A stretch of DNA of 64,000 nucleotides from Thiotrichaceae bacterium (GTDB taxonomy: Bacteria; Pseudomonadota; Gammaproteobacteria; Beggiatoales; Beggiatoaceae), in assembly GCA_028688145.1 (NCBI GenBank), contig JAQTYU010000005.1, positions 62,001 through 126,000 of the forward strand, read 5' to 3'. The translations under genes and the position numbers were made by a program. Every line of letters starts with the position of its first letter. Position 1 is the first letter of the stretch. Under the pieces are notes generated by a model, which did no database searches, was not told the origin of the DNA, and saw only the letters and a program-made list of their open reading frames with translations. Below, one piece after another: positions 28,994 to 46,566 of this stretch.

Positions 28994-30361
28994 TTAACGC
29001 GACAAACGGGTTTTATAAACCACTTGCTGCCCATCTAAACCCTTGAGATTCACCAAATCACGGCTTGCAATTTCCAATTTCAATTGCGCCAATGCCTCTT
29101 GAAAACTCGCATCTTGATAAACTTGTTCTGAAAAACAAATTTCACCGCTATCCGCAACCCCTTGAACTCGCGCAGCTTTATTTACCGTCGAACCAAAATA
29201 ATCTAACCGGTCATTCAAATTCACTAAAATCGCTTGTCCGTGGTGCATTCCCGTTTTAATTTGTACTCGGGCATCTTCGGGCAATTCATGATTGTAATGG
29301 TCAAAGTCTTTCAATGCCGCCACCAAACTGCGGACAGCCGCGCCGCTGTTGGTGAAAGATGCCATCACCGCATCGCCAATGGTTTTCAAAACCACGCCAC
29401 CTTCGGCTTCAATCTGGGCGAATAAAATATCAAAATGGTCACGCACGATATTGTAGGCTTTGGCATCGCCCAATTTTTCATACAACTGCGTCGAGCCTGT
29501 GATGTCGGTGAAAATAATCGTCACCGAGGCGACTTTCATTTGTTCACGTTTTGATAAAACTTGCTCGCCAAAAAGTTTTCTAAAATCAGGATAATGCAGA
29601 ATATCCAAGCCCGACAAAGTTGCGGGACGATGTGCGCCTGTCAAATCTGAAACTTCACCTGCAAAAACCCGTAAACCTGACATCGGATAAGCCAAGTTGG
29701 TTAAATTCAGGCGAATCGTGCCTTTACGCGCATGAATCACGGGCGGGTCAAATTTACCTTCTGCCAATTGTTTGATGCTGAATTCTTGCGGCGAACTACA
29801 GCCTTCATCAGCAATAATCAATGTACCTTTGGAAAAGGTGGCGGGACAAAAATAATGATAACTGCCTGCTTCTAAAAAGATTTCTTCAGCAGAAGCGGTT
29901 TGCAAATAGGGCACGCCCAAATTAAAACGGGAATCAAATTGCGGTGGCGGCTCGCAGACGGGGGGAAATTCGCGCTCATCAATTGATTTATTCAGAGAAA
30001 AGGTGATTTCGACTTGCTCGGAAAAATCGGTTTCAAAGCCGACTTCGCACATATTGCAATAGCCTTGCCCTGAGGCGTGCTGCAAATTGTTATAGGCTTT
30101 GGTCAACATGTAGCAATGTGGGCAGTGAATATCCCAGTTCAAATCGAACAAGCCTAAAGGCACAGCGTGTAGGAATTCTGGCACAATCTGCGGCAAAGGC
30201 AGGTGTGAATATTCGGCAATTTTAATCGGGGTGATGCGAGAAATTGTAAAATCGTCTTGATGTGCCAGTAACCAGTGTTCTATCGCATGGACGGCGGGCA
30301 CGGAGGCATGAGCGCGTTGTTTAAGTAAATCAAGCTTTTGAGTAAGGCGTTGTGTATCCAT
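28994..30361 (-). CDS. Class III adenylate/guanylate cyclase with N-terminal zinc-ribbon region
   Basis: A 455-residue cytoplasmic protein. The N-terminal half carries a likely zinc ribbon (CPHC near residue 99, CNMC about 25 residues later) within a DUF5939-like region. The C-terminal catalytic domain starts near residue 275: VTIIFTDITGSTQLYEKLGD with both metal aspartates in range, LKTIGDAVMASF, and DYFGSTVNKAARVQ with the Asn and Arg of the transition-state motif. ATG 30361 is preceded by AGGA. It should produce a cyclic nucleotide; which one cannot be told. Confidence 0.85.
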   Translation of the reverse strand: MDTQRLTQKLDLLKQRAHASVPAVHAIEHWLLAHQDDFTISRITPIKIAEYSHLPLPQIVPEFLHAVPLGLFDLNWDIHCPHCYMLTKAYNNLQHASGQGYCNMCEVGFETDFSEQVEITFSLNKSIDEREFPPVCEPPPQFDSRFNLGVPYLQTASAEEIFLEAGSYHYFCPATFSKGTLIIADEGCSSPQEFSIKQLAEGKFDPPVIHARKGTIRLNLTNLAYPMSGLRVFAGEVSDLTGAHRPATLSGLDILHYPDFRKLFGEQVLSKREQMKVASVTIIFTDITGSTQLYEKLGDAKAYNIVRDHFDILFAQIEAEGGVVLKTIGDAVMASFTNSGAAVRSLVAALKDFDHYNHELPEDARVQIKTGMHHGQAILVNLNDRLDYFGSTVNKAARVQGVADSGEICFSEQVYQDASFQEALAQLKLEIASRDLVNLKGLDGQQVVYKTRLSR

Positions 30362-30503
30362 GAGTGATCCTGTGGCGGAAAATGCTGATCTATCCAGAAG
30401 TATAGCAAGCAAATTGGTGACCATTTGTGTCTAAATTAGGATTCACAAAAAAATGTAGCTGTATGAAGCGTAGCAGAATATGGGATGGATCAAGATTATA
30501 GAT

Positions 30504-30687: not shown

Positions 30688-31304
30688 TCAATGCTTATAG
30701 AACCGATTTGGAATTTTTAAAGAGAAGCGAGAACGGTAAAGCTCTTTAAAATCTGCGGTTGGGTATAAAGTTTCATCACATAAACTGGTGACTAACACCT
30801 CAAATTGTCCCTTTAGACGCACTCGCACAAAACGGACAGCAAGGATTTTGGGTAAGCCTGCCTGTTTTATTGAATGGAGTTTTGACGTATGGGGTTGTAG
30901 TGTATGTAATTGACTGTCTGCACCCTCGACTTTTGCCTTATTACTGTAGGAGATTTCTCCAAATTCTCCAATGACGCTGGGTGTGGAAGCATGACATCGA
31001 CCACAGCTTTCTGGTTGAGTTCGATAAAGGCTGTATGTTTGAGCTGCATTCTGCGCTGACTAAAAGCACTATGACTGACGGGAGAGACTCCCCAATGGAG
31101 ACTCATCTCATTTAACAACAACTGTATGGACTTCACGCCCTTTTGTAATAACAGTGTCATTAACAAGAGGAAACTTAGCTTTCTGTCCCTTGTGAAGTTG
31201 CGGTGTTGCGCTTTGAAACTATCCATGTGAATGAGTTCGTTACTTTGGATTAACGTTGCGTTTTTTTTAACATGGGAGATAATCCTGTTCCTTTTATCTC
31301 TCAC
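30688..31304 (-). pseudogene. IS4-type transposase remnant
   Basis: The 5' part (145 codons from 31304) reads as an IS4-family N-terminus (RKLSFLLLMTLLLQKGVKSIQ, FSQRRMQLKHTAFIELNQ). After about residue 100 the frame diverges and stops at 30867. In a different frame further on (about 30850-30688) the conserved C-terminal region reappears (VRFVRVRLKGQFEVLVTSL, YPTADFKELYRSRF) before a TGA. The catalytic middle, several hundred bases, is missing, so it is inactive. It lies next to the MITE-like element. Confidence 0.8.
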
Positions 31305-35873: not shown

Positions 35874-38219
35874 TTAGGTCACGAATCTTGAAAACCAATG
35901 TTCTGGATTCGCTGCGAAAAAGCTCACGAACACGGTTTGTAAATCCGCGTTGTAATCACGATTTTGAATATCGACCACCGTTTTATATAAGGCCTCAAAC
36001 AACAGGCGCGGTTCTTCTTTGAGAGTAATGAACCTATTGCTATCATCATAGTTCCTAAAACGATCAATTTCTTGTTTGCCGACTTTACCCATGATTTCGG
36101 GCTGACGCGCATCGCGGAAAATGGCAAAGAGAATCTGGGGATATGAAACCACCAATTCATTTAAATTTTTCAGGCGTGAGGTGAAACTTGTGCCTTCCGC
36201 ATGTAGAAAACCGACTAGACGTTTTACTTCAGGACAGCCTTCTTGTTTAGGAAAAACTAACATCAGATGTTCAGGCAAAGCACGCTTGCTGAGATGTAAG
36301 TAATCAATTTTAAAGGCTTTAAATTGATTCCAAGCCTTCACCAAAAACAGCAGTTTTCCCAAATCGTCACCATCAGAAATAATGCTGTTCGTGTAACGTG
36401 CGGCTAATAAAGTTTTTTGCTGCTCTAAATACTTCAAAATCTGAACGTCAGCAGTGCTTGTGGTTTCGGGGTCTGCCACAAATTTTTGGGTACGCTTCAA
36501 CTTATCAATTTCATCGCGCAATTTTTGTAAATCACTTAAAACGCGCTCTTCAAACGTGCGGGCGTGCACAGGCAAGGGCACACTGTCAGCTTTTAGACGG
36601 TAATAATCAGCCGCCACATTGAGCACGGCACGAATTGAATTTTGCTTGACGATATTTTCAACTTCTTCAGGCATCAATAATTCTTCAATATCAATCTGAT
36701 AAGGCACAGCTTTGGCGGCAAGAATTTCTGTTAATTCGCGTTCGCTGGGGCGGTTTAAATAAATCTGATTTTGTGCAATGCGGTCGGTGATAGAGCTGTC
36801 GAAAAAATGCTGAAAATGTTTCCAACGATCAGGAAACAGAGTCACAATAATCAAACTGTTTGAAACTTCAGTGAATAATTGTTTCAAAGCCGCGCCAAAA
36901 CTGCGTAATAAATTTTCATGATCGCGCAAACTTTCGAGCTGGTCGAACACAATAATTAAAGGCTGATCTTCAATTGACAGTTTGCTGAATACGCGAATCG
37001 CTTGCAGCGCGAATTCTTCACGATCCATGCTTTCTGACCAATTACTTAGCCCAATATTTTTTAATTCATCTTCATCAACTTCTTGACCCGCCAACCATTT
37101 TCGTACTAAATCACGTTTACTCGCCTCGGTATAACTGCAAAACTTAATCAAGCCTTTAATCACATCACAGCCATAATTGCTAAATCCATACTGATTTGTC
37201 CACCATTCGGTGGTGTGCTTTTCAATAAATTTCCAATTATTTCGATATTGATCCGAGCCTTCTTTACCCAACACCTTGTAAATACTGAGATGATCTTCAT
37301 CAATACGCTTCAGCAATAGTTCATGTTTATTGCTGGCAGTCACGCTGGCTTTTGCAAAATGTTCCAGCACAATTCGTGAAAAACTGTGTGCTAATAAAAA
37401 CTCAAGCTGTGAATATTCGCTATTCGGTACAGTTTCCATGAAAGATTCTAAAATACGGCAATAAATGTGATGGATAACCGTCTCAGGATGGTTGGGCTGT
37501 CGAATAAATAACAGGCGATTATTTTTCAAAACTTCATGCGCAAGCCGCATAATCAGGTGAGTTTTGCCATTACCCGCTTCACCAATCACTAACGCGCCCT
37601 TGCTCTGATGATTCGGATCACGTTTGATTTCTTCGAGAATGGTGGTGAAACGTGAAAATTCATGTTCATAAACTTTCGGCATATCCACATGATATTCAAA
37701 GGGATTATCGACGCGACTATCGCCAAAAGGATTGGGCTTGCCGTGCAATTGCTGTTTTAATTGCTCAGATTTGAGCTTGCGATATAACAAATAAGTGAAT
37801 TGAGTATCATAACGTGCGGTGTGGGCGACATCTCTATTGTAAGCGCGCTTATCCCAATGCAAGTCGAGGTGTTTGCAGAGATATTCTAAACTGTGTCCGT
37901 TTATATCGGGATATTCTTGTTTGGCTAAATTATAAGTACAAACAAAATCAAGCTGTTCCCACAAAATGCCCGCTTGCTGACAGGCTTGTTGCAAAACTTC
38001 ACGATCATGATCCGCATAATGACAAACCACTTGTTTGCCACGCGCCAAAGCAAAAAATTCTTCTAATACGGTGAGTAAGGGTTTTGCCCGCCACGTATCG
38101 GTATTACTTAAAGCTTCTTGCACAAACACATTGTAAAGTTCATTGCCGTGACGGTCTAAAATTGCAAGTTCACGTAAAAACTCTTTCCCTTCAGTATCTA
38201 ATACGATGAAATCTTGCAT
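35874..38219 (-). CDS. DEDDh exonuclease / P-loop ATPase fusion protein
   Basis: A 781-residue protein, started at ATG 38219 behind AAGGAG. Residues about 1-150 are a DEDDh 3'-5' exonuclease: Asp8 and Glu10 (VLDTEGK), Asp72 (CHYADHD) and His133/Asp138 (HTARYD). Residues about 185-500 are a P-loop NTPase with Walker A GEAGNGKT (213-220) and Walker B LIIVFD (421-426), a STAND/ORC-like layout. A short coiled coil (about 557-580) and an unrecognised C-terminal domain of about 200 residues follow. I know no named system with this exact architecture. A nucleic-acid surveillance or antiphage role is inferred. It is a single gene, divergent from an MFS gene. Confidence 0.8.
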   Translation of the reverse strand: MQDFIVLDTEGKEFLRELAILDRHGNELYNVFVQEALSNTDTWRAKPLLTVLEEFFALARGKQVVCHYADHDREVLQQACQQAGILWEQLDFVCTYNLAKQEYPDINGHSLEYLCKHLDLHWDKRAYNRDVAHTARYDTQFTYLLYRKLKSEQLKQQLHGKPNPFGDSRVDNPFEYHVDMPKVYEHEFSRFTTILEEIKRDPNHQSKGALVIGEAGNGKTHLIMRLAHEVLKNNRLLFIRQPNHPETVIHHIYCRILESFMETVPNSEYSQLEFLLAHSFSRIVLEHFAKASVTASNKHELLLKRIDEDHLSIYKVLGKEGSDQYRNNWKFIEKHTTEWWTNQYGFSNYGCDVIKGLIKFCSYTEASKRDLVRKWLAGQEVDEDELKNIGLSNWSESMDREEFALQAIRVFSKLSIEDQPLIIVFDQLESLRDHENLLRSFGAALKQLFTEVSNSLIIVTLFPDRWKHFQHFFDSSITDRIAQNQIYLNRPSERELTEILAAKAVPYQIDIEELLMPEEVENIVKQNSIRAVLNVAADYYRLKADSVPLPVHARTFEERVLSDLQKLRDEIDKLKRTQKFVADPETTSTADVQILKYLEQQKTLLAARYTNSIISDGDDLGKLLFLVKAWNQFKAFKIDYLHLSKRALPEHLMLVFPKQEGCPEVKRLVGFLHAEGTSFTSRLKNLNELVVSYPQILFAIFRDARQPEIMGKVGKQEIDRFRNYDDSNRFITLKEEPRLLFEALYKTVVDIQNRDYNADLQTVFVSFFAANPEHWFSRFVT

Positions 38220-38521
38220 GTTAAACCGTCTCCTTGGTGGGGCTGTAAAAAGCATCTGAACTGTCACTTGCTTAAATTCGTGAAAATTTGGACAGTCCGA
38301 AATAATCGAGTATTGTAATGCTTAATGAAAAAAGTGGTAATACTAAAATGATAAGGATTTTGTCACAAAAAATATTAAGCTTTTTTCTGTAATTCCTTCA
38401 TTCAGACAAACAGTTTTAACTCCCTTTAGAAGCTTGGAAGTTTAACCCAGTAGTTTTCTTCTTTCTCAAAAAATGCCAAACTTGCCCCCATTGTTTATCC
38501 CTACGGAGCTTTGATAACTTC

Positions 38522-39847
38522 ATGAGCCAATTGCCTTTATTGAAAAGTCGGCGATTTCTTCCGCTGTTTTGGACACAATTTTTAGGCGCGTTTAACGACA
38601 ACGTCTATAAAAATGCCTTGGTGATTTTGATTATTTTCCAAAATGCCAGCCTGTTTGGACTCGACAGCAACCAACTGGTGACCATGAGCGCGGGTATTTT
38701 TATTCTGCCCTATTTTTTATTTTCTGCCACGGCGGGACAGTTAGCCGATAAATATGAGAAATCACGGCTGATTCGTTGGATTAAAATTTTAGAAATCATC
38801 ATTATGCTATTGGCAATTGCAGGCTTTTATTTTGCCGATGTGTTCAGCTTGATCGTGCTGTTATTTTTGATGGGGGCGCAAGCGACTTTATTCGGACCTT
38901 TGAAATATGGGATTTTGCCGCAGCATTTGCACGAAAATGAATTGATGGCAGGCAACGGCTTGATTGAAATGGGCACGTTCTTAGCCATTTTATTGGGTAC
39001 GATTTTGGGCGGCGTGGTGGTTGCCATTCAGCCCAATGGCAGTCTAATTGTGGCGGGCGTGGTGGTTTTTATTTCAATTTTGGGCTGGTTTGCAAGTTTA
39101 TGGATTCCGCCCGCCGAAGCCGCCGATCCGAAGATTAAAATCAATTGGAATATCGCTTATGAAACCTGGCATACTTTGCAATATGGCGCGGAAAATCGCA
39201 GCGTATTCTTAGCTTTATTAGCGATTTCATGGTTTTGGCTGGTGGGCGCAACGTTTTTATCGCAATTCCCTGCTTATAGCAAAGAAGTCCTGCACGGCAA
39301 TGAACACGTTATTACTTTGCTTTTAACCGTGTTTTCCATTGGCATCGGCACGGGTTCAACTTTGTGCGACAAGCTTTCGGGCGGGCGGGTTGAATTGGGT
39401 TTGGTGGTGTTGGGCGCAATCGGCATTAGCGTGTTTTCTGTGGATGTGTATTTTGCCAGCCAAGGTTTGGCACAATTTGCCGCAACTGTGCCCTTAATTG
39501 ATGTGAGCGTATTTTTGGCAAACGTCTCCCATTGGCGAGTTTTGGCAGATTTACTGTTAATTGGTTTGTTTGGCGGTTTTTACATCGTGCCTTTATATGT
39601 GTTGATGCAGCAACGCAGCAATCCGCATCATCGTTCACGGGTGATTGCTGCCAACAATATTTTGAACGCGCTGTTAATGGTGCTCTCAGCTTTGGCGACG
39701 GTGTGGATGTTAAAAATGGGCATGAATTCGCCACAAATCTTTTTAGTGACAGGCATCAGCAGTGCGGGGGTGACGTTTGTATTATTCCTGTTGCAGCCTG
39801 AATTTATACAAAGCTTTTTGAGATGGTCGGGGTTGCGTAAAGTTTAA
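38522..39847 (+). CDS. MFS transporter, LplT-like
   Basis: A 441-residue major facilitator with about twelve membrane segments. It begins RRFLPLFWTQFLGAFNDNVYKNAL, the signature of the lysophospholipid transporter (LplT) group, then ATAGQLADKYEKSRLIRW and LFGPLKYGILPQHL. In many bacteria this domain is fused to acyltransferase and acyl-ACP ligase domains (Aas). Here it is stand-alone and no aas gene follows. It probably flips lysophospholipids across the inner membrane. Confidence 0.85.
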   Translation: MSQLPLLKSRRFLPLFWTQFLGAFNDNVYKNALVILIIFQNASLFGLDSNQLVTMSAGIFILPYFLFSATAGQLADKYEKSRLIRWIKILEIIIMLLAIAGFYFADVFSLIVLLFLMGAQATLFGPLKYGILPQHLHENELMAGNGLIEMGTFLAILLGTILGGVVVAIQPNGSLIVAGVVVFISILGWFASLWIPPAEAADPKIKINWNIAYETWHTLQYGAENRSVFLALLAISWFWLVGATFLSQFPAYSKEVLHGNEHVITLLLTVFSIGIGTGSTLCDKLSGGRVELGLVVLGAIGISVFSVDVYFASQGLAQFAATVPLIDVSVFLANVSHWRVLADLLLIGLFGGFYIVPLYVLMQQRSNPHHRSRVIAANNILNALLMVLSALATVWMLKMGMNSPQIFLVTGISSAGVTFVLFLLQPEFIQSFLRWSGLRKV

Positions 39848-40464: not shown

Positions 40465-40734
40465 TTTTTATCCTTACCGCATGAAATAAATGTGTTTTAT
40501 AAAATAGGGGGTTAAGTTTTAACAAAGCTATTATCGAATATTTTCCAGAAAATATAATTACTTTATCCTGCTGTTGTGCATGAAAATTCGGTAGATTAAT
40601 TAACCTCTTGTTTAGACAAATACAACTGTTGAACAGAAACTCCTTTTCTAAAACCGATTTTTGGTCTTTAATTTGCCTAACTGTTTCAATTCTATAATTT
40701 CATAATGGGGAATAAACTCCCTAGGATATTAAAA

Positions 40735-43700
40735 ATGTGGCACTTCATTCGTTTATTTTTATTTTGCCTGAGTTTATGGGGGCTGAGCCTGTCTAGTCAG
40801 GCTGCCACCATCTCAGTCAATACGCTTGCTGATAACACTACAAGTGGTGACAGTCTTTGTACCTTACGGGAAGCTATTATCAGTGCTAATACGGGTTCTG
40901 CGGGTAGTTCAGGCTGCACAATCACTGGTTTTGGCACAAGTTATATAATTCAATTGGTGGTGACTGGAACTATCAATCTAGCTTCTGAATTACCTGCGAT
41001 TACTTCAGACATCACACTTAAACAGTCCACGAGCGGCGCATCTGCTGGAAATTTTGTTATCCGGGGCGGGGTGGGATTTCGGATTATAAGAGTAAGCAGC
41101 GGCACAGTTCAATTTATCGATCTCTCTATGGTGAGTGGTAATGCGATTGATGGAGGGGCCTTATACATTGACAGTCCTGCAAACGTGACTCTCGTCAATG
41201 TTGCGATTCAAGGTAACAACGCAAGCAATTCAGGCGGTGGGATTTATAACAATGGTACTTTGACACTGCAAACTAACAGTATTGTTAAAAGTAATACTGC
41301 CAGCATCAGTGGGGGGGGAATTCATAATCAGTCGGGTACGCTTACAATAGATGCCAGTCAAGTTGGGACTGCAATTGATCCAAATACAGTAAATGGTGCG
41401 TCAGGCAGCACCCATGTGGGGGGCGGAATTGCCAATTTTAACGGCACGTTAAATATCAATAATACCTCAAAAATTTGTTCAAATACTGTTGTTTATTCGG
41501 CGGGTAATGCCTTAGGCGGTGGGATTTATAGCAGTGAGGGCACGGTTACTATCAGCAGTAATAGCGAAGTTTGTAATAACTCCACCACCAGTGACAACGG
41601 TTCGGGACAAAGTCACGGTGCAGGGATTTATAGTGTTGCTACAATAGCGGGGACGACAAATCTCACGATTCAATCAGGCAGTAAAGTTTATGGAAATATT
41701 GCTTCAGGTTTGACAGTTAACAATCGAGGAGGCGGGATTTATCAAACAGGGTCACGCGATTTAGTAATTAGTGCTGCCTTTATTGGAACCGCTGGCAATC
41801 CTAATACAGCCACATATGGTGCGGGGATTTATAACGATAAGAGCAATGTTACAATTCAAAGTGGCACAGAAGTTTGCTATAACGAAGCCAGTAATTCACT
41901 CATAAATAGTACGGGTGGCGGGATTTATAATGATACAGGTAACACAAACAACCAGTTACAGATCAATAATAGTACGTTTTGCTTCAACACAACCAATGGT
42001 TCATCCAGCAGTGCAGGCGGTGCGATTGCCAACTATGGGAGCGGAAGTAATCCCAACCTAGTCATTCAAAATAACAGTCAGTTTTATGGGAATCAAGTGA
42101 CAGGAAGTCCTTATCCAGTCGGGGGGGCAATTTATAATTACTCCACAGCAGGCGTGACTATTGACAATAGCACCATAGGTACCGAGGCTAATCCTAATAA
42201 AGCTCAAGATGGGGCAGGGATTTACAATGGGGCAGGTCTACTTACTGTACAAAACAACAGTATTATTAGTTATAACCTTGCCAGTGGAGATGGGGCAGGG
42301 ATTTATAATGCAGCCACTTTAGCGGTTAATAACAGTACGCTTTCTTATAACAATGCCACCAATGCGGGGGGTGGAATTAATAATTCAGGTACTATTAGCT
42401 CCTTTAGTAACTCTAAATTAATCTATAATTTGGCAAGTACAGGCAGTGCCTTCTATCAAGCTGCGTCCGCGCTAGGTGCTACTTTTGGCACAAATAACTG
42501 CATCGTGCAGAATTTTAATTCTACCGATGACGTGTATAACGATCCCACAAATCCCGTGCAAAGTATGAACGGCGTGTGGTGGGGTTCAAGTGATGGGGCT
42601 TCAGGCGGCACATTAACGGGGCATGGTGAAAGTATCTCTAATGTAAGCCAAGGGACTTTTTTAACGACAGCCCCCACAGGTTGTCCTGACCCTGCTTACA
42701 GTTCTAGCCCTGCCACAGGCACAATTAATCTCGGCACAACCGCTGTAAGCACGCCCATTACCACAAGTATTAACATTACTGAAGGCGGTAATGCTGATTT
42801 ATGGGTGAAACTGGCAGGCGGCAGTCTCGCAAGCGCATTAACGGGGACAAATGCCGCAGATTTCACAGTGTTAGGAAGTTTCCCACTGCATGTGACACAA
42901 AGCACCTCACAAACTATCACCGTGCAATGCACACCCAGCGCGACTGGCACACGGACAGCCACCTTGACCTTGGAAACCACCGCATCGCTCTTGCCCACGG
43001 GAAATAACCAAAAGATTTATAACTTGCAATGTAATACCCCCGCAGGTGCTGGTTTTTCCTCAACTCCCACGCCAAGCACCGCCCTTAATTTTGGCAGTGT
43101 GAATCTTGGCAGCAGTGCGGCTCAAAACATCAGTGTTTCAGAAACAGGTTCAGCCGCACTCAACGTGAGTTTAGTTTCATTATCAGGTGTAAATGCGAGC
43201 GAGTTTAGCGTGAGTGGTTTGCCCTTCAAAATTCTTGATGGGGACGCAGCCCGCACAATTGGCGTGACTTGTACACCGACAGCCGCAGGCACACGCACAG
43301 CAACTTTAACCCTGAGCACCGATGATCCTGCAAAAACAAGCGTCAGCTATCCGCTATCTTGTTCAGGTGTTACACCTTCTACAAACCCAGTATTTAATTC
43401 AAACCCGCTCCCCAGCGTTGGACTGAGTTTCGGCAATGTTTCCACCACCACAGGCGCAAGCCAAACGATCAGCATCACCAATACGGGCAACGCTGCTTTA
43501 AACGTCAGTTTAAGTAGTTTGGGGGGCGCGAATGCGGCTGATTTCAGTGTCATTGGCTTGCCTTTAAGTATCGTGAATGGTACGCCTGCACAAAATATCA
43601 CCGTCAGTTGTAAACCCAGCGCATTGGGAACACGTACCGCAACTTTGAATTTAAACACCAATGATCCTGCACAAGTCGCTATCAGTTATAACTTGACTTG

Positions 43701-46566
43701 TACCGCAGCAGGCACAACAGTTTGTGACACGCAAAAGCAAATTCCCATCCCTCAATGTAATGCTTTGTTGAATTTATATAATTCGACCAACGGCGCAAAT
43801 TGGACAGATAAAGCCAGTAATCAATGGTTGAGTGCACAGCCTTGTACTTGGGCAGGAGTTGGCTGTGTTGCAGGACAAGTGATTTCCTTAAGTCGTAGCC
43901 AACAAAACTTAATTGGGACATTGCCAAGTTTGGCGGGTTTAGCGGCTTCTTTAACCGCATTGAATTTATCCGATAACCAACTCTCGGGCGTGCTCCCTGA
44001 TTATCTGAGCTTTAGTAAATTACAAGACCTTGATTTAAGCAGCAATTTACTGAGTGGTGCAATTATTGGTTTGCCAAGCAGTTTGAAAACCTTGCGTTTA
44101 GATAATAATCAGTTGGAAGGCATTATTCCTGACCTGACCCCGTTGACAGGCTTAAACTTTTTGAATTTGGATTTTAACAAACTGGTTGGGGAAACCGCAG
44201 GTTCTGCCACGGCGATGCAAGCCACATGGCGTCTCACACAAACCATGATGCCGACTAATGTCAAAGCCACGCCCCTCTCGGCGACACAAGTGCAAGTGAC
44301 ATGGACACTGATTAACTACATCACTGACAACGGCTTTTATCGGGTGAAATATGCGACCACAGCGGGCGGCCCATACACAATATTCCCCACCACAACGACC
44401 AGTAAATCTGTCAATAATTTAACCGTGACCGGCTTAACGGCAAATACACAATATTATTTCGTGGTGGAAACGATAACCCAACCCCATTTAAGACAGCGTA
44501 GCCAATTAATCAGCGCGCCTAGTGCGGAAGTTGCTGCCAAAACCTTAACCACTGCGGCAAAATTCAGCACGATTCCTGCCATCGGTTCGAGCTTGAATTT
44601 AGGCGTTGCTGATTTTGGCAACCCCAGCACCAGCAGTGTGACCGTGATTAATTTAAGCAACACCGTACTCACCGTGAGTGCCAGTATCAGCGGAACCAAT
44701 GCCGCTGATTTCAGTGTCACGCCAAGCAGTGCTAGCATTGCGGGTAGCAGTGCAGGCGTTACGCCATTACAACAATTATTCGTGGTGCAATGTCGTCCTG
44801 CGGCAACCAGCTTTGGCGCGCTCAGTGCCACTTTGAACTTGGCAACGAATGACCCCGCACAAGCCAATGTGACTTATCCCTTGAGCTGTCAAAGCAATAA
44901 TAAGCAAGTGGTGAATAATCCCCCCACCGACATTACTTTGTCGAACAGTTCGATCAGTGACAGTTTGGTGGGCGGCGGTTTGGTGGGCTTATTGAAAACC
45001 CAAGACCCTGATGCTACGGATAGCTTTACCTACACTTTAATCGACAGTGCTACGGGTGTCTTTGCTTTAAACGGCAATGAGTTACACACGGCAGCAGGTG
45101 CAATTTTAGATGGCGCAACCCGTCCCAGTTATACGATTAAAGTGCGTAGTACCGATTCTGGTGGCTTATTCATTGAAAAAAGCTTAACAATTAGTGTGTT
45201 GTCGTCAACAAACAGCATTTTCACTGGCGAAATTGCCAGCGACAGTGGCACGATTGCCAGTAATTTAAGTTTGGAAGCATCGGAAAACTTCAAGCTGACA
45301 GGACATATTCAACCTGATAATCGTCATGTGGGGCAATCCGCAAGCATACTGGTTACTTATACTTGGAATAGTGCAGGCACTACGCCGCGCCTGATTCCTG
45401 TGACCTTGGCAAAAAATCAGGTTTTAAGCGCGAAAATGGATTTGACCTTGTTCCAAGGTAATTTAACAGGACTTTCGGGGGTGTTTAATGTGCATCTCAG
45501 TTATCGCTTGGATAGTAGCGGTAAAGAACTGGGCGGCGACATTGCGCGTTTAGAATTGCAGGTAAATCATGCACCGACAGACATTAGTTTATCGGCGACA
45601 AGTTTGAGTGAAGACAGCGTAGAGGGCAGTTTGATTGGGAAATTTAGCACAATTGATGCCGACAAGCGCGACCATTTTGTGTATGGTTTGGTGGGCACAG
45701 AGCAATTTATCCCCTTCAAAATTGTTGGCGATGAATTACGTGTTACGAACAACTTTTTACTGAATGCGAAAACCTCGCCGCAATATCAGTTCACAGTACG
45801 CAGTGTCGATTCTTTTGGCAGTTTTACTGAAAAAAACTTTACCATCAATGTGCAAACTGCTGACAGCTTGCCCACTGAAATTGGTTTAACCAATCACAAC
45901 ATTTTAGAAGCCAGTCATTACGGCGCAGTGGTGGGACGCTTGTTTACCCGTGAACGCCATCCCTACAGCTATCAGTATGAATTGCTGGATGATGCGGGCG
46001 GACGTTTTGCTCTGCATCAAGATTTGCTGATGGTGTCGAATGGCGATTTACTGCAATATGAAGTGCAACCTCAACACAGTGTGACAGTACGCAGTACCAA
46101 TGTGACCACAGGGAAAACTTTGGAGCAAAGCTTCGCGATTGATTTGATTAATATTCCTAACATTCATCTGCAAGCCAGTTTCCGTGATGCACAGGGCGCG
46201 GTGTTGGATAAATCAAGTTTTTCGGCTAACGAGTTTTTGAATCTGTCTTTGCGCTTGTATCCTGAATCAACCCACAAGGGTAAAACGGTGGATTTAATTC
46301 TGGTTGGAGTATTCCTGCCCAATGACGCACCTGATAATTACACCTTGCTCATGCTGAATCCTGATTTTAACTTAGCGATTTGGGATGGGGATTTTGCACA
46401 TTTACAAAGTGCGGGCAAAATCGTGTTAGATGCACAACACGATTTCCAATTGTGGAATGCAGCCTTGCCCGCTGTGAATGGCAAACTCGCGATTTTCCTA
46501 GGCTATCGTTTGGATTCGGGAGAAGTATTTTATCAACCGCAAGCGATTAGTTTGGAAATTCACTAA
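40735..46566 (+). CDS. Giant secreted multidomain protein (CSLREA, beta-helix, HYDIN-like, LRR, FN3, cadherin-like)
   Basis: About 1943 residues. The start ATG 40735 follows AGGA and opens a signal peptide. In order: a CSLREA segment (SLCTLREAIISAN, about 40-55); parallel beta-helix repeats with many GGGIYN/GAGIYN turns (about 90-650); three choice-of-anchor-D/HYDIN-like repeats (about 655-990); a leucine-rich region (about 990-1160); FN3-like (about 1160-1270); a fourth HYDIN-like unit; and cadherin-like units (TDITLS, TDISLS) alternating with two copies of an unnamed beta domain ending in GYRLDSG/SYRLDSS. There is no C-terminal membrane anchor, autotransporter barrel or LPXTG-like signal. 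It is probably a surface or matrix protein; the secretion route is not shown. Confidence 0.85.
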   Translation: MWHFIRLFLFCLSLWGLSLSSQAATISVNTLADNTTSGDSLCTLREAIISANTGSAGSSGCTITGFGTSYIIQLVVTGTINLASELPAITSDITLKQSTSGASAGNFVIRGGVGFRIIRVSSGTVQFIDLSMVSGNAIDGGALYIDSPANVTLVNVAIQGNNASNSGGGIYNNGTLTLQTNSIVKSNTASISGGGIHNQSGTLTIDASQVGTAIDPNTVNGASGSTHVGGGIANFNGTLNINNTSKICSNTVVYSAGNALGGGIYSSEGTVTISSNSEVCNNSTTSDNGSGQSHGAGIYSVATIAGTTNLTIQSGSKVYGNIASGLTVNNRGGGIYQTGSRDLVISAAFIGTAGNPNTATYGAGIYNDKSNVTIQSGTEVCYNEASNSLINSTGGGIYNDTGNTNNQLQINNSTFCFNTTNGSSSSAGGAIANYGSGSNPNLVIQNNSQFYGNQVTGSPYPVGGAIYNYSTAGVTIDNSTIGTEANPNKAQDGAGIYNGAGLLTVQNNSIISYNLASGDGAGIYNAATLAVNNSTLSYNNATNAGGGINNSGTISSFSNSKLIYNLASTGSAFYQAASALGATFGTNNCIVQNFNSTDDVYNDPTNPVQSMNGVWWGSSDGASGGTLTGHGESISNVSQGTFLTTAPTGCPDPAYSSSPATGTINLGTTAVSTPITTSINITEGGNADLWVKLAGGSLASALTGTNAADFTVLGSFPLHVTQSTSQTITVQCTPSATGTRTATLTLETTASLLPTGNNQKIYNLQCNTPAGAGFSSTPTPSTALNFGSVNLGSSAAQNISVSETGSAALNVSLVSLSGVNASEFSVSGLPFKILDGDAARTIGVTCTPTAAGTRTATLTLSTDDPAKTSVSYPLSCSGVTPSTNPVFNSNPLPSVGLSFGNVSTTTGASQTISITNTGNAALNVSLSSLGGANAADFSVIGLPLSIVNGTPAQNITVSCKPSALGTRTATLNLNTNDPAQVAISYNLTCTAAGTTVCDTQKQIPIPQCNALLNLYNSTNGANWTDKASNQWLSAQPCTWAGVGCVAGQVISLSRSQQNLIGTLPSLAGLAASLTALNLSDNQLSGVLPDYLSFSKLQDLDLSSNLLSGAIIGLPSSLKTLRLDNNQLEGIIPDLTPLTGLNFLNLDFNKLVGETAGSATAMQATWRLTQTMMPTNVKATPLSATQVQVTWTLINYITDNGFYRVKYATTAGGPYTIFPTTTTSKSVNNLTVTGLTANTQYYFVVETITQPHLRQRSQLISAPSAEVAAKTLTTAAKFSTIPAIGSSLNLGVADFGNPSTSSVTVINLSNTVLTVSASISGTNAADFSVTPSSASIAGSSAGVTPLQQLFVVQCRPAATSFGALSATLNLATNDPAQANVTYPLSCQSNNKQVVNNPPTDITLSNSSISDSLVGGGLVGLLKTQDPDATDSFTYTLIDSATGVFALNGNELHTAAGAILDGATRPSYTIKVRSTDSGGLFIEKSLTISVLSSTNSIFTGEIASDSGTIASNLSLEASENFKLTGHIQPDNRHVGQSASILVTYTWNSAGTTPRLIPVTLAKNQVLSAKMDLTLFQGNLTGLSGVFNVHLSYRLDSSGKELGGDIARLELQVNHAPTDISLSATSLSEDSVEGSLIGKFSTIDADKRDHFVYGLVGTEQFIPFKIVGDELRVTNNFLLNAKTSPQYQFTVRSVDSFGSFTEKNFTINVQTADSLPTEIGLTNHNILEASHYGAVVGRLFTRERHPYSYQYELLDDAGGRFALHQDLLMVSNGDLLQYEVQPQHSVTVRSTNVTTGKTLEQSFAIDLINIPNIHLQASFRDAQGAVLDKSSFSANEFLNLSLRLYPESTHKGKTVDLILVGVFLPNDAPDNYTLLMLNPDFNLAIWDGDFAHLQSAGKIVLDAQHDFQLWNAALPAVNGKLAIFLGYRLDSGEVFYQPQAISLEIH

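Follow-up and report, generated by a model that had tools for sequence, protein, structure and literature searches.

The window analyzed here, a 64,000-nucleotide stretch of a contig from a Thiotrichaceae bacterium, carries a gene on its minus strand (35874..38219, 781 amino acids, coordinates including the stop) whose product joins an N-terminal DEDDh 3′-5′ exonuclease to a predicted AAA+ ATPase of the initiator type and to a C-terminal alpha/beta domain. Sequence comparisons and structure models show three domains, intact key residues in the exonuclease and the ATPase, an initiator-type ATPase fold, and a patchy distribution that crosses phyla. No named family with this domain order was found in Pfam, NCBIfam, or PADLOC, and no published description of the exonuclease-AAA+ architecture was found in the open-access literature. 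We tentatively propose that the protein is an accessory, ATP-controlled 3′-5′ DNA exonuclease machine that acts on foreign or abnormally exposed DNA, an interpretation that we regard as close to an even call. A first-pass annotation, made from the letters of the sequence, had described a single 781-residue polypeptide with a complete DEDDh exonuclease, a full Walker A/B NTPase, and a C-terminal domain that it could not name, arranged in this order and encoded by a solitary gene, and it knew of no antiphage or repair family so built; all of these descriptions held up.

The 781 codons and the stop run uninterrupted on the minus strand from 38219 to 35874, and the plus strand across the same positions is crowded with stops. 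Relatives in four phyla are 36-51% identical to the protein across its full length, and, therefore, the frame is not a product of chance. An alternative GTG at 38267, 48 bases upstream of the ATG, could lengthen the frame. Because a ribosome-binding site, AAGGAG (38230..38235, minus strand, read from the sequence), lies ~10 nt ahead of the ATG at 38219, we take that ATG to be the correct start. The host genome has one copy of the exonuclease-AAA+ gene. Neither of the two genes that flank it in the window is a nuclease or defense gene: the one that begins 54 bp downstream (35819-35295, minus strand) is presumably hemerythrin-like, judging by its sequence, and the divergent upstream one, at 38522, we take to be an MFS transporter on the same grounds. 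No Rfam family matched near the gene.

The exonuclease domain occupies residues 1-155 (37755..38219, minus strand) and matches Pfam RNase_T above the cut-off (E = 2.7e−6). Its catalytic residues Asp8, Glu10, Asp72, His133, and Asp138 are all found in the window protein at a spacing that fits DEDDh enzymes, and they are kept in nearly every exonuclease-bearing homolog (Asp8, Asp72, and His133 in 48/48; Glu10 and Asp138 in 47/48). The model of residues 1-159 has the fold of PolC, DnaQ, and RNase T (Z of 17-18, rmsd of ~2.5), and in the profile comparison PolC is nearest (5.5e−8), followed by DnaQ (9e−5). Because the exonuclease is nearest to PolC and DnaQ both by profile and by fold, DNA is the more likely substrate.

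Several known systems share this part of the protein. DinG of Staphylococcus aureus (8zef, 9ii8) likewise has an N-terminal DEDDh domain fused to an ATP-driven DNA motor (Z = 17.0, 147 residues aligned), but its motor is an SF2 helicase, whereas the motor of the window protein is of the AAA+ initiator type and is followed by an extra C-terminal domain. A DinG-like exonuclease-helicase was rejected as an assignment, since the NCBIfam DinG match spans residues 38-149 only and the motor is AAA+. Cap18 (7t2s), which also has the DEDDh fold (Z = 16.3), is a free-standing CBASS exonuclease, and the PADLOC matches to candidate PDC-S48 and to Cas-associated DEDDh (1e−13 to 6e−8) span the exonuclease part only.

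Residues 160-552 (36564..37742, minus strand) make up the predicted AAA+ ATPase, delimited by a match to Pfam AAA_16 above the cut-off (E = 6.8e−9), a TnsC/ORC fold, and conserved alignment columns. The Walker A motif G213-x-x-G-x-GKT220 is present, its core being invariant in 62/62 rows, and the Walker B motif lies within residues 421-429 (F425-D426-Q-L-E429), with DQLE in 62/62. The two sensors were assigned from the sequence and the position of the helical lid, with no nucleotide-bound structure behind them; on this assignment, the sensor-2 residue Arg530 is also invariant (62/62), and the sensor-1 position, 460, is Asn in 61 of the 62 homologs and Thr in the window copy. We read Thr460 as a possible quirk of this copy, in which the ATP cycle might be altered.

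The model of residues 160-552 adopts an AAA+ fold with a helical lid and resembles TnsC of Tn7 (7mcs; Z = 16.1, rmsd = 3.5, 255 residues) and archaeal ORC2 (1w5t; Z = 15.8, 249 residues), and weak sequence matches are to the DnaA, Hda, IstB, orc1/cdc6, and DnaC-like families and to TniB. With TnsC and archaeal ORC/Cdc6 (1w5t, 2qby) the ATPase has in common the AAA+ fold (Z of 15.7-16.1), Walker A and B, and the sensor-2 Arg. In contrast to the window protein, TnsC and ORC/Cdc6 have neither an exonuclease nor a PD-(D/E)XK-like C-terminal domain, and their identity to the window ATPase is just 12-14%. These comparisons identify the ATPase as an AAA+ module of the initiator (TnsC/ORC) type. The ATPase also has a Foldseek match to the N-terminal part of BREX BrxC (9zll; E = 1.3e−3). 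A distant cousin without the exonuclease matches BrxC/BrxD (PF10923) above the Pfam cut-off, whereas the window protein has no match to PF10923, and no BREX genes were seen beside the exonuclease-AAA+ gene.

The character of the ATPase bears on a claim of the first-pass annotation that fared less well, namely, that the C-terminal domain is a sensor by analogy with STAND proteins. If the protein were an immune receptor of the STAND type, its C-terminal domain would sense a phage product, the NTPase would oligomerize, and the exonuclease would kill. The order of effector, NTPase, and C-terminal domain agrees with such a receptor, as do weak matches to nSTAND5 and NACHT; in addition, 26 of the 62 members weakly match an anti-phage protein of the NACHT kind (best E = 3e−4). 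The initiator features and fold of the AAA+ module, including Arg530, argue against it, as do the frequency of forms without the exonuclease and the C-terminal part itself, which is compact and conserved. Two specific assignments were rejected: STAND/NACHT membership by profile, where the scores are under the cut-offs (nSTAND5, 29.5 bits versus 34; NACHT, 23.1 versus 26.7; nSTAND1, 21.8 versus 27.1), and a repeat sensor (TPR, LRR, or WD40) at the C terminus, where the model has a compact alpha/beta domain instead (pLDDT of 96). We consider a STAND-type receptor improbable.

In the AlphaFold2 model built with 62 homologs (mean pLDDT of 89.6, pTM of 0.65), the ATPase is followed by a variable helical linker, residues 553-595 (36435..36563, minus strand), within which residues 577-587 have pLDDT below 50. 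The C-terminal alpha/beta domain, residues 596-781 (35877..36434, minus strand), was delimited by a separate model, by weak fold matches, and by conservation; modeled alone, it is compact, with a pLDDT of 96.2. Mean pairwise identity is 47% in the exonuclease, 53% in the ATPase, 18% in the linker, and 44% in the C-terminal domain, which is thus conserved and not diversified.

By sequence, the C-terminal domain has no match in the PDB up to an E value of 1 and only scattered weak matches in Pfam. Its order of elements, alpha-beta-beta-beta-alpha-beta-alpha-beta-alpha, fits the PD-(D/E)XK core (alpha-beta-beta-beta-alpha-beta), and its fold matches are weak (best Z = 5.9). Most of these matches are of the restriction-endonuclease type (EcoT38I, AspBHI, MspJI, Cap4, BamHI, and BstEII, all with Z < 6), and the unrelated folds of acetyl-CoA carboxylase, Ras, and APOBEC are mixed among them. 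The Foldseek matches to PD-(D/E)XK enzymes of the Cap4/AspBHI/MspJI/EcoT38I type have E values of 3e−3 to 9e−3. Unlike those enzymes, the window domain lacks (D/E)xK in its third strand, where there is no conserved acidic-x-Lys; the strand ends in RLVGF in the window copy, with Phe671 invariant. The domain instead conserves R682, N685, N687, R702, D703, and R705. We suggest that it is apparently noncatalytic and reads or binds DNA or a partner. The first-pass annotation had counted a match of this domain to a known DNA-repair factor as evidence against its proposal, and no such match was found. The domain-by-domain structure comparison that it had recommended was informative for the exonuclease and the AAA+ fold, and it gave only weak matches for the C-terminal domain.

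Relatives were gathered with an alignment-based genome scan; a single-protein scan found none, its peptide patterns being too specific. The alignment-based scan recovered 119 relatives. Full-length relatives occur in the host family (Thiotrichales/Beggiatoaceae, including Thiomargarita, Thioploca, and Parabeggiatoa), Cyanobacteria, Desulfobacterota, and Campylobacterota. Among 43 host-family genomes, 20 have the exonuclease-bearing form (in one of the 20, split into two adjacent genes) and 16 have an exonuclease-less form or fragment. Obligate pairing of the two forms is not supported, as they co-occur in 8 of the 43 genomes and the exonuclease-bearing form is alone in 12. Outside the host family, the 53 genomes examined from the same class had neither form. 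In phylum samples that each include the genome on which the sample was centered, the exonuclease-bearing form is present in 24/292 cyanobacteria (~8%) and in 3/200 Campylobacterota and 1/198 Desulfobacterota (~1%). Within the genus Nostoc, 4 of 53 genomes carry the gene and 49 do not, and in Planktothrix it is nearly fixed (9 of 10 species). The gene is chromosomal in most cases, mostly with one or two copies per genome, and 7 cyanobacterial plasmid records carry full-length copies. Cultivable carriers include Planktothrix, Arthrospira, Nostoc, and Synechococcus elongatus PCC 11801 (on a 33-kb plasmid). No relative was detected in the phage records and viral contigs searched, and a phage-borne or anti-defense origin is thus unsupported. 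Overall, the gene is accessory, mobile on a long timescale, and stably held in some lineages. Forms that lack the exonuclease occur often, so this domain by itself does not account for the family. In one host-family genome (L069:8906-11327), a 155-amino-acid exonuclease is followed by a 654-amino-acid ATPase in adjacent, overlapping genes, an arrangement that suggests that the exonuclease can work in trans.

We also found evidence in the phylogenies of movement between phyla. The cyanobacterial copies form one group (support of 99 in a quick tree), a Desulfobulbaceae copy (L086) groups with a Thiomargarita copy (100/99), and a tree constrained to place the three Desulfobacterota copies in one group is rejected (p-AU = 1.3e−4). 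Old paralogy is an alternative to transfer for the split of the Desulfobacterota copies, since two of the three lack the exonuclease. Mis-binning of L086 is unlikely because ThrS encoded on the same contig is Desulfobacterota-like, with 54-59% identity to its counterparts in most of the Desulfobacterota genomes sampled (48% for three of them) versus 48-50% to Thiotrichales. Gene exchange among giant sulfur bacteria, filamentous sulfate reducers, and cyanobacteria is documented (PMC6390638), and the present family would add one more protein family to it. The horizontal acquisition assumed in the first-pass annotation is therefore supported by the trees, the plasmids, and L086 for the family, and this support does not extend to the window copy in particular.

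As a guide to function, the genomic context is mixed. No partner gene is conserved across the ~90 loci, and the recurring neighbors are lineage-specific (a GmrSD-like gene in Nostocaceae and photolyase in Planktothrix). Most neighbors are unrelated housekeeping genes that differ by lineage, among them those for glycogen debranching enzyme, PNPOx and aldolase, photolyase, and ALAD; others, from reading their sequences, are presumably nuo, tat, gap, and eno genes. Homologs universally conserved in housekeeping loci had been named as evidence against a defense role: the surroundings are often housekeeping, but they are different each time and not universally conserved. Near neighbors matched 107 PADLOC families for 124 proteins and genes further out 138 for 130, that is, with no excess near the gene, in a comparison that is weak because it counts family totals rather than proteins matched and because the far set may include island genes.

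Clear defense neighbors occur only in some cyanobacteria. A GmrSD-like gene (GmrSD_N, 1e−27; PADLOC HEC-05, 3e−47) lies 30-33 bp downstream of the exonuclease-AAA+ gene and in the same orientation at four loci (L032, L035, L099, and L148), overlaps it at L101, and is upstream of it at L031. Where the GmrSD-like gene follows, in a Nostocaceae subclade, the arrangement is operon-like. On a conjugative Calothrix plasmid (L031:3830-9932), DISARM drmA, drmB, and drmC are located a few genes upstream. The gene adjoins a ThsB-type TIR and a macro protein (Thoeris) at L036 and a type IIG restriction-modification enzyme at L034. On these two Synechococcus elongatus plasmids (L034:14166-17332 and L036:14252-17424), it sits beside a divergent parA and is followed by different defense cargo, in the manner of a cargo hotspot. 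Because defense systems outside islands exist (DefensePredictor, PMC13092281), solitude is no argument against defense. The neighborhood survey for defense islands was thus mixed with respect to the defense role first suggested for this protein: several cyanobacterial copies lie beside defense genes, while the mostly housekeeping neighbors and the PADLOC totals without an excess near the gene count against that role.

The parA neighbors on the two Synechococcus plasmids, together with TnsC being among the closest ATPase folds and with the weak IstB and TniB matches, could also indicate plasmid or mobile-element maintenance, in which a TnsC/IstB-like ATPase with a nuclease processes or stabilizes the element. 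The mostly chromosomal location in one or two copies and the lack of shared flanks, of a partner transposase, and of any transposition-gene enrichment seen make this improbable. A transposon component was itself rejected, as the neighborhood tables hold no shared flanks or partner transposase.

A host DNA-repair or replication-stress factor, whose AAA+ module would load at damaged or stalled DNA while the exonuclease trims 3′ ends, is a more substantial alternative, and we regard it as possible though falling well short of probable. A DEDDh exonuclease and an ATPase are likewise combined in the known repair enzymes SaDinG and MrfAB (PMC12345164). In the 9 of 10 Planktothrix species that carry it, the gene occupies a stable site, with photolyase adjoining on the opposite strand in most loci compared, and a plasmid-borne copy in Tolypothrix has HerA-NurA in its vicinity, along with a protein that clusters with the Planktothrix photolyases. 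Housekeeping surroundings and the conservation of all three domains, none of them diversified, also agree with repair. However, the gene is missing from most genomes of every phylum that has it (including the 49 Nostoc genomes), it has moved between phyla and on plasmids, and GmrSD, DISARM, Thoeris, and type IIG genes neighbor it in cyanobacteria.

For the proposed exonuclease machine, we envisage that the initiator-type AAA+ module would bind ATP and assemble in the manner of TnsC and ORC, probably forming an oligomer on DNA. The C-terminal domain, PD-(D/E)XK-like but apparently not an active nuclease, would grip or read DNA or a partner, and the assembly would set the DEDDh exonuclease on 3′ ends to degrade foreign or abnormally exposed DNA. 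The DNA substrate, the oligomerization, and the role of the C-terminal domain are parts of this scheme that we infer. The kept catalytic residues, the PolC/DnaQ-like exonuclease, the TnsC/ORC-like AAA+ module, the accessory distribution, the plasmid copies, the grouping of L086 with Thiomargarita, the defense neighbors in several cyanobacteria, and the FtsK-type operon partners of distant exonuclease-less cousins argue for such a machine. Against it stand the housekeeping neighbors, the lack of a PADLOC excess, the near-fixation in Planktothrix, the absence of matches in the phage records and viral contigs searched, the frequency of exonuclease-less forms, the weak C-terminal fold matches, and Thr460; the near-fixed Planktothrix site beside photolyase is unlike fast-turnover defense genes. 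As to the purpose of the machine, we slightly favor protection against invading DNA (phage or plasmid) over a role in mending host DNA. We further conjecture, with considerable doubt, that the protein is a one-gene DNA-defense machine, that its DEDDh exonuclease is brought to invading DNA by a TnsC/ORC-like AAA+ module in place of a helicase or STAND switch, that it circulates mainly in filamentous mat-formers (giant sulfur bacteria and cyanobacteria), and that the exonuclease-less paralog either regulates it as a partner or is a decoupled form.

To our knowledge, the exonuclease-motor fusions already described all use helicases. An initiator-type AAA+ module driving a DEDDh exonuclease would, if true, represent another means of directing a nuclease to DNA, and it would pose a control problem of its own, namely, how the host chromosome is spared. 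In most hosts the gene stands alone on the chromosome, and defense-island searches would therefore miss the family. The cultivable cyanobacterial carriers mean that a knockout can separate defense from repair.

Two distant exonuclease-less cousins lie in apparent three-gene operons, each with an unnamed protein of 266-315 amino acids, the AAA ATPase, and an FtsK-type protein. The latter is a PD-(D/E)XK-FtsK translocase matching SspH in one operon (L037:5066-10025) and an FtsK_alpha-domain protein in the other (L073:863-4872); these operons are a possible undescribed restriction-like system. Elsewhere in the window, a 145-amino-acid open reading frame (30867-31304, minus strand) looks, on our reading, like the remnant of a broken transposase. 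We take a 1953-amino-acid product (40705-46566, plus strand) to be a secreted repeat protein, with stretches that read as LRR-like, choice-of-anchor-like, and cadherin-like, and a 476-amino-acid product (28994-30424, minus strand) is presumably a class III adenylate/guanylate cyclase with an N-terminal extension.
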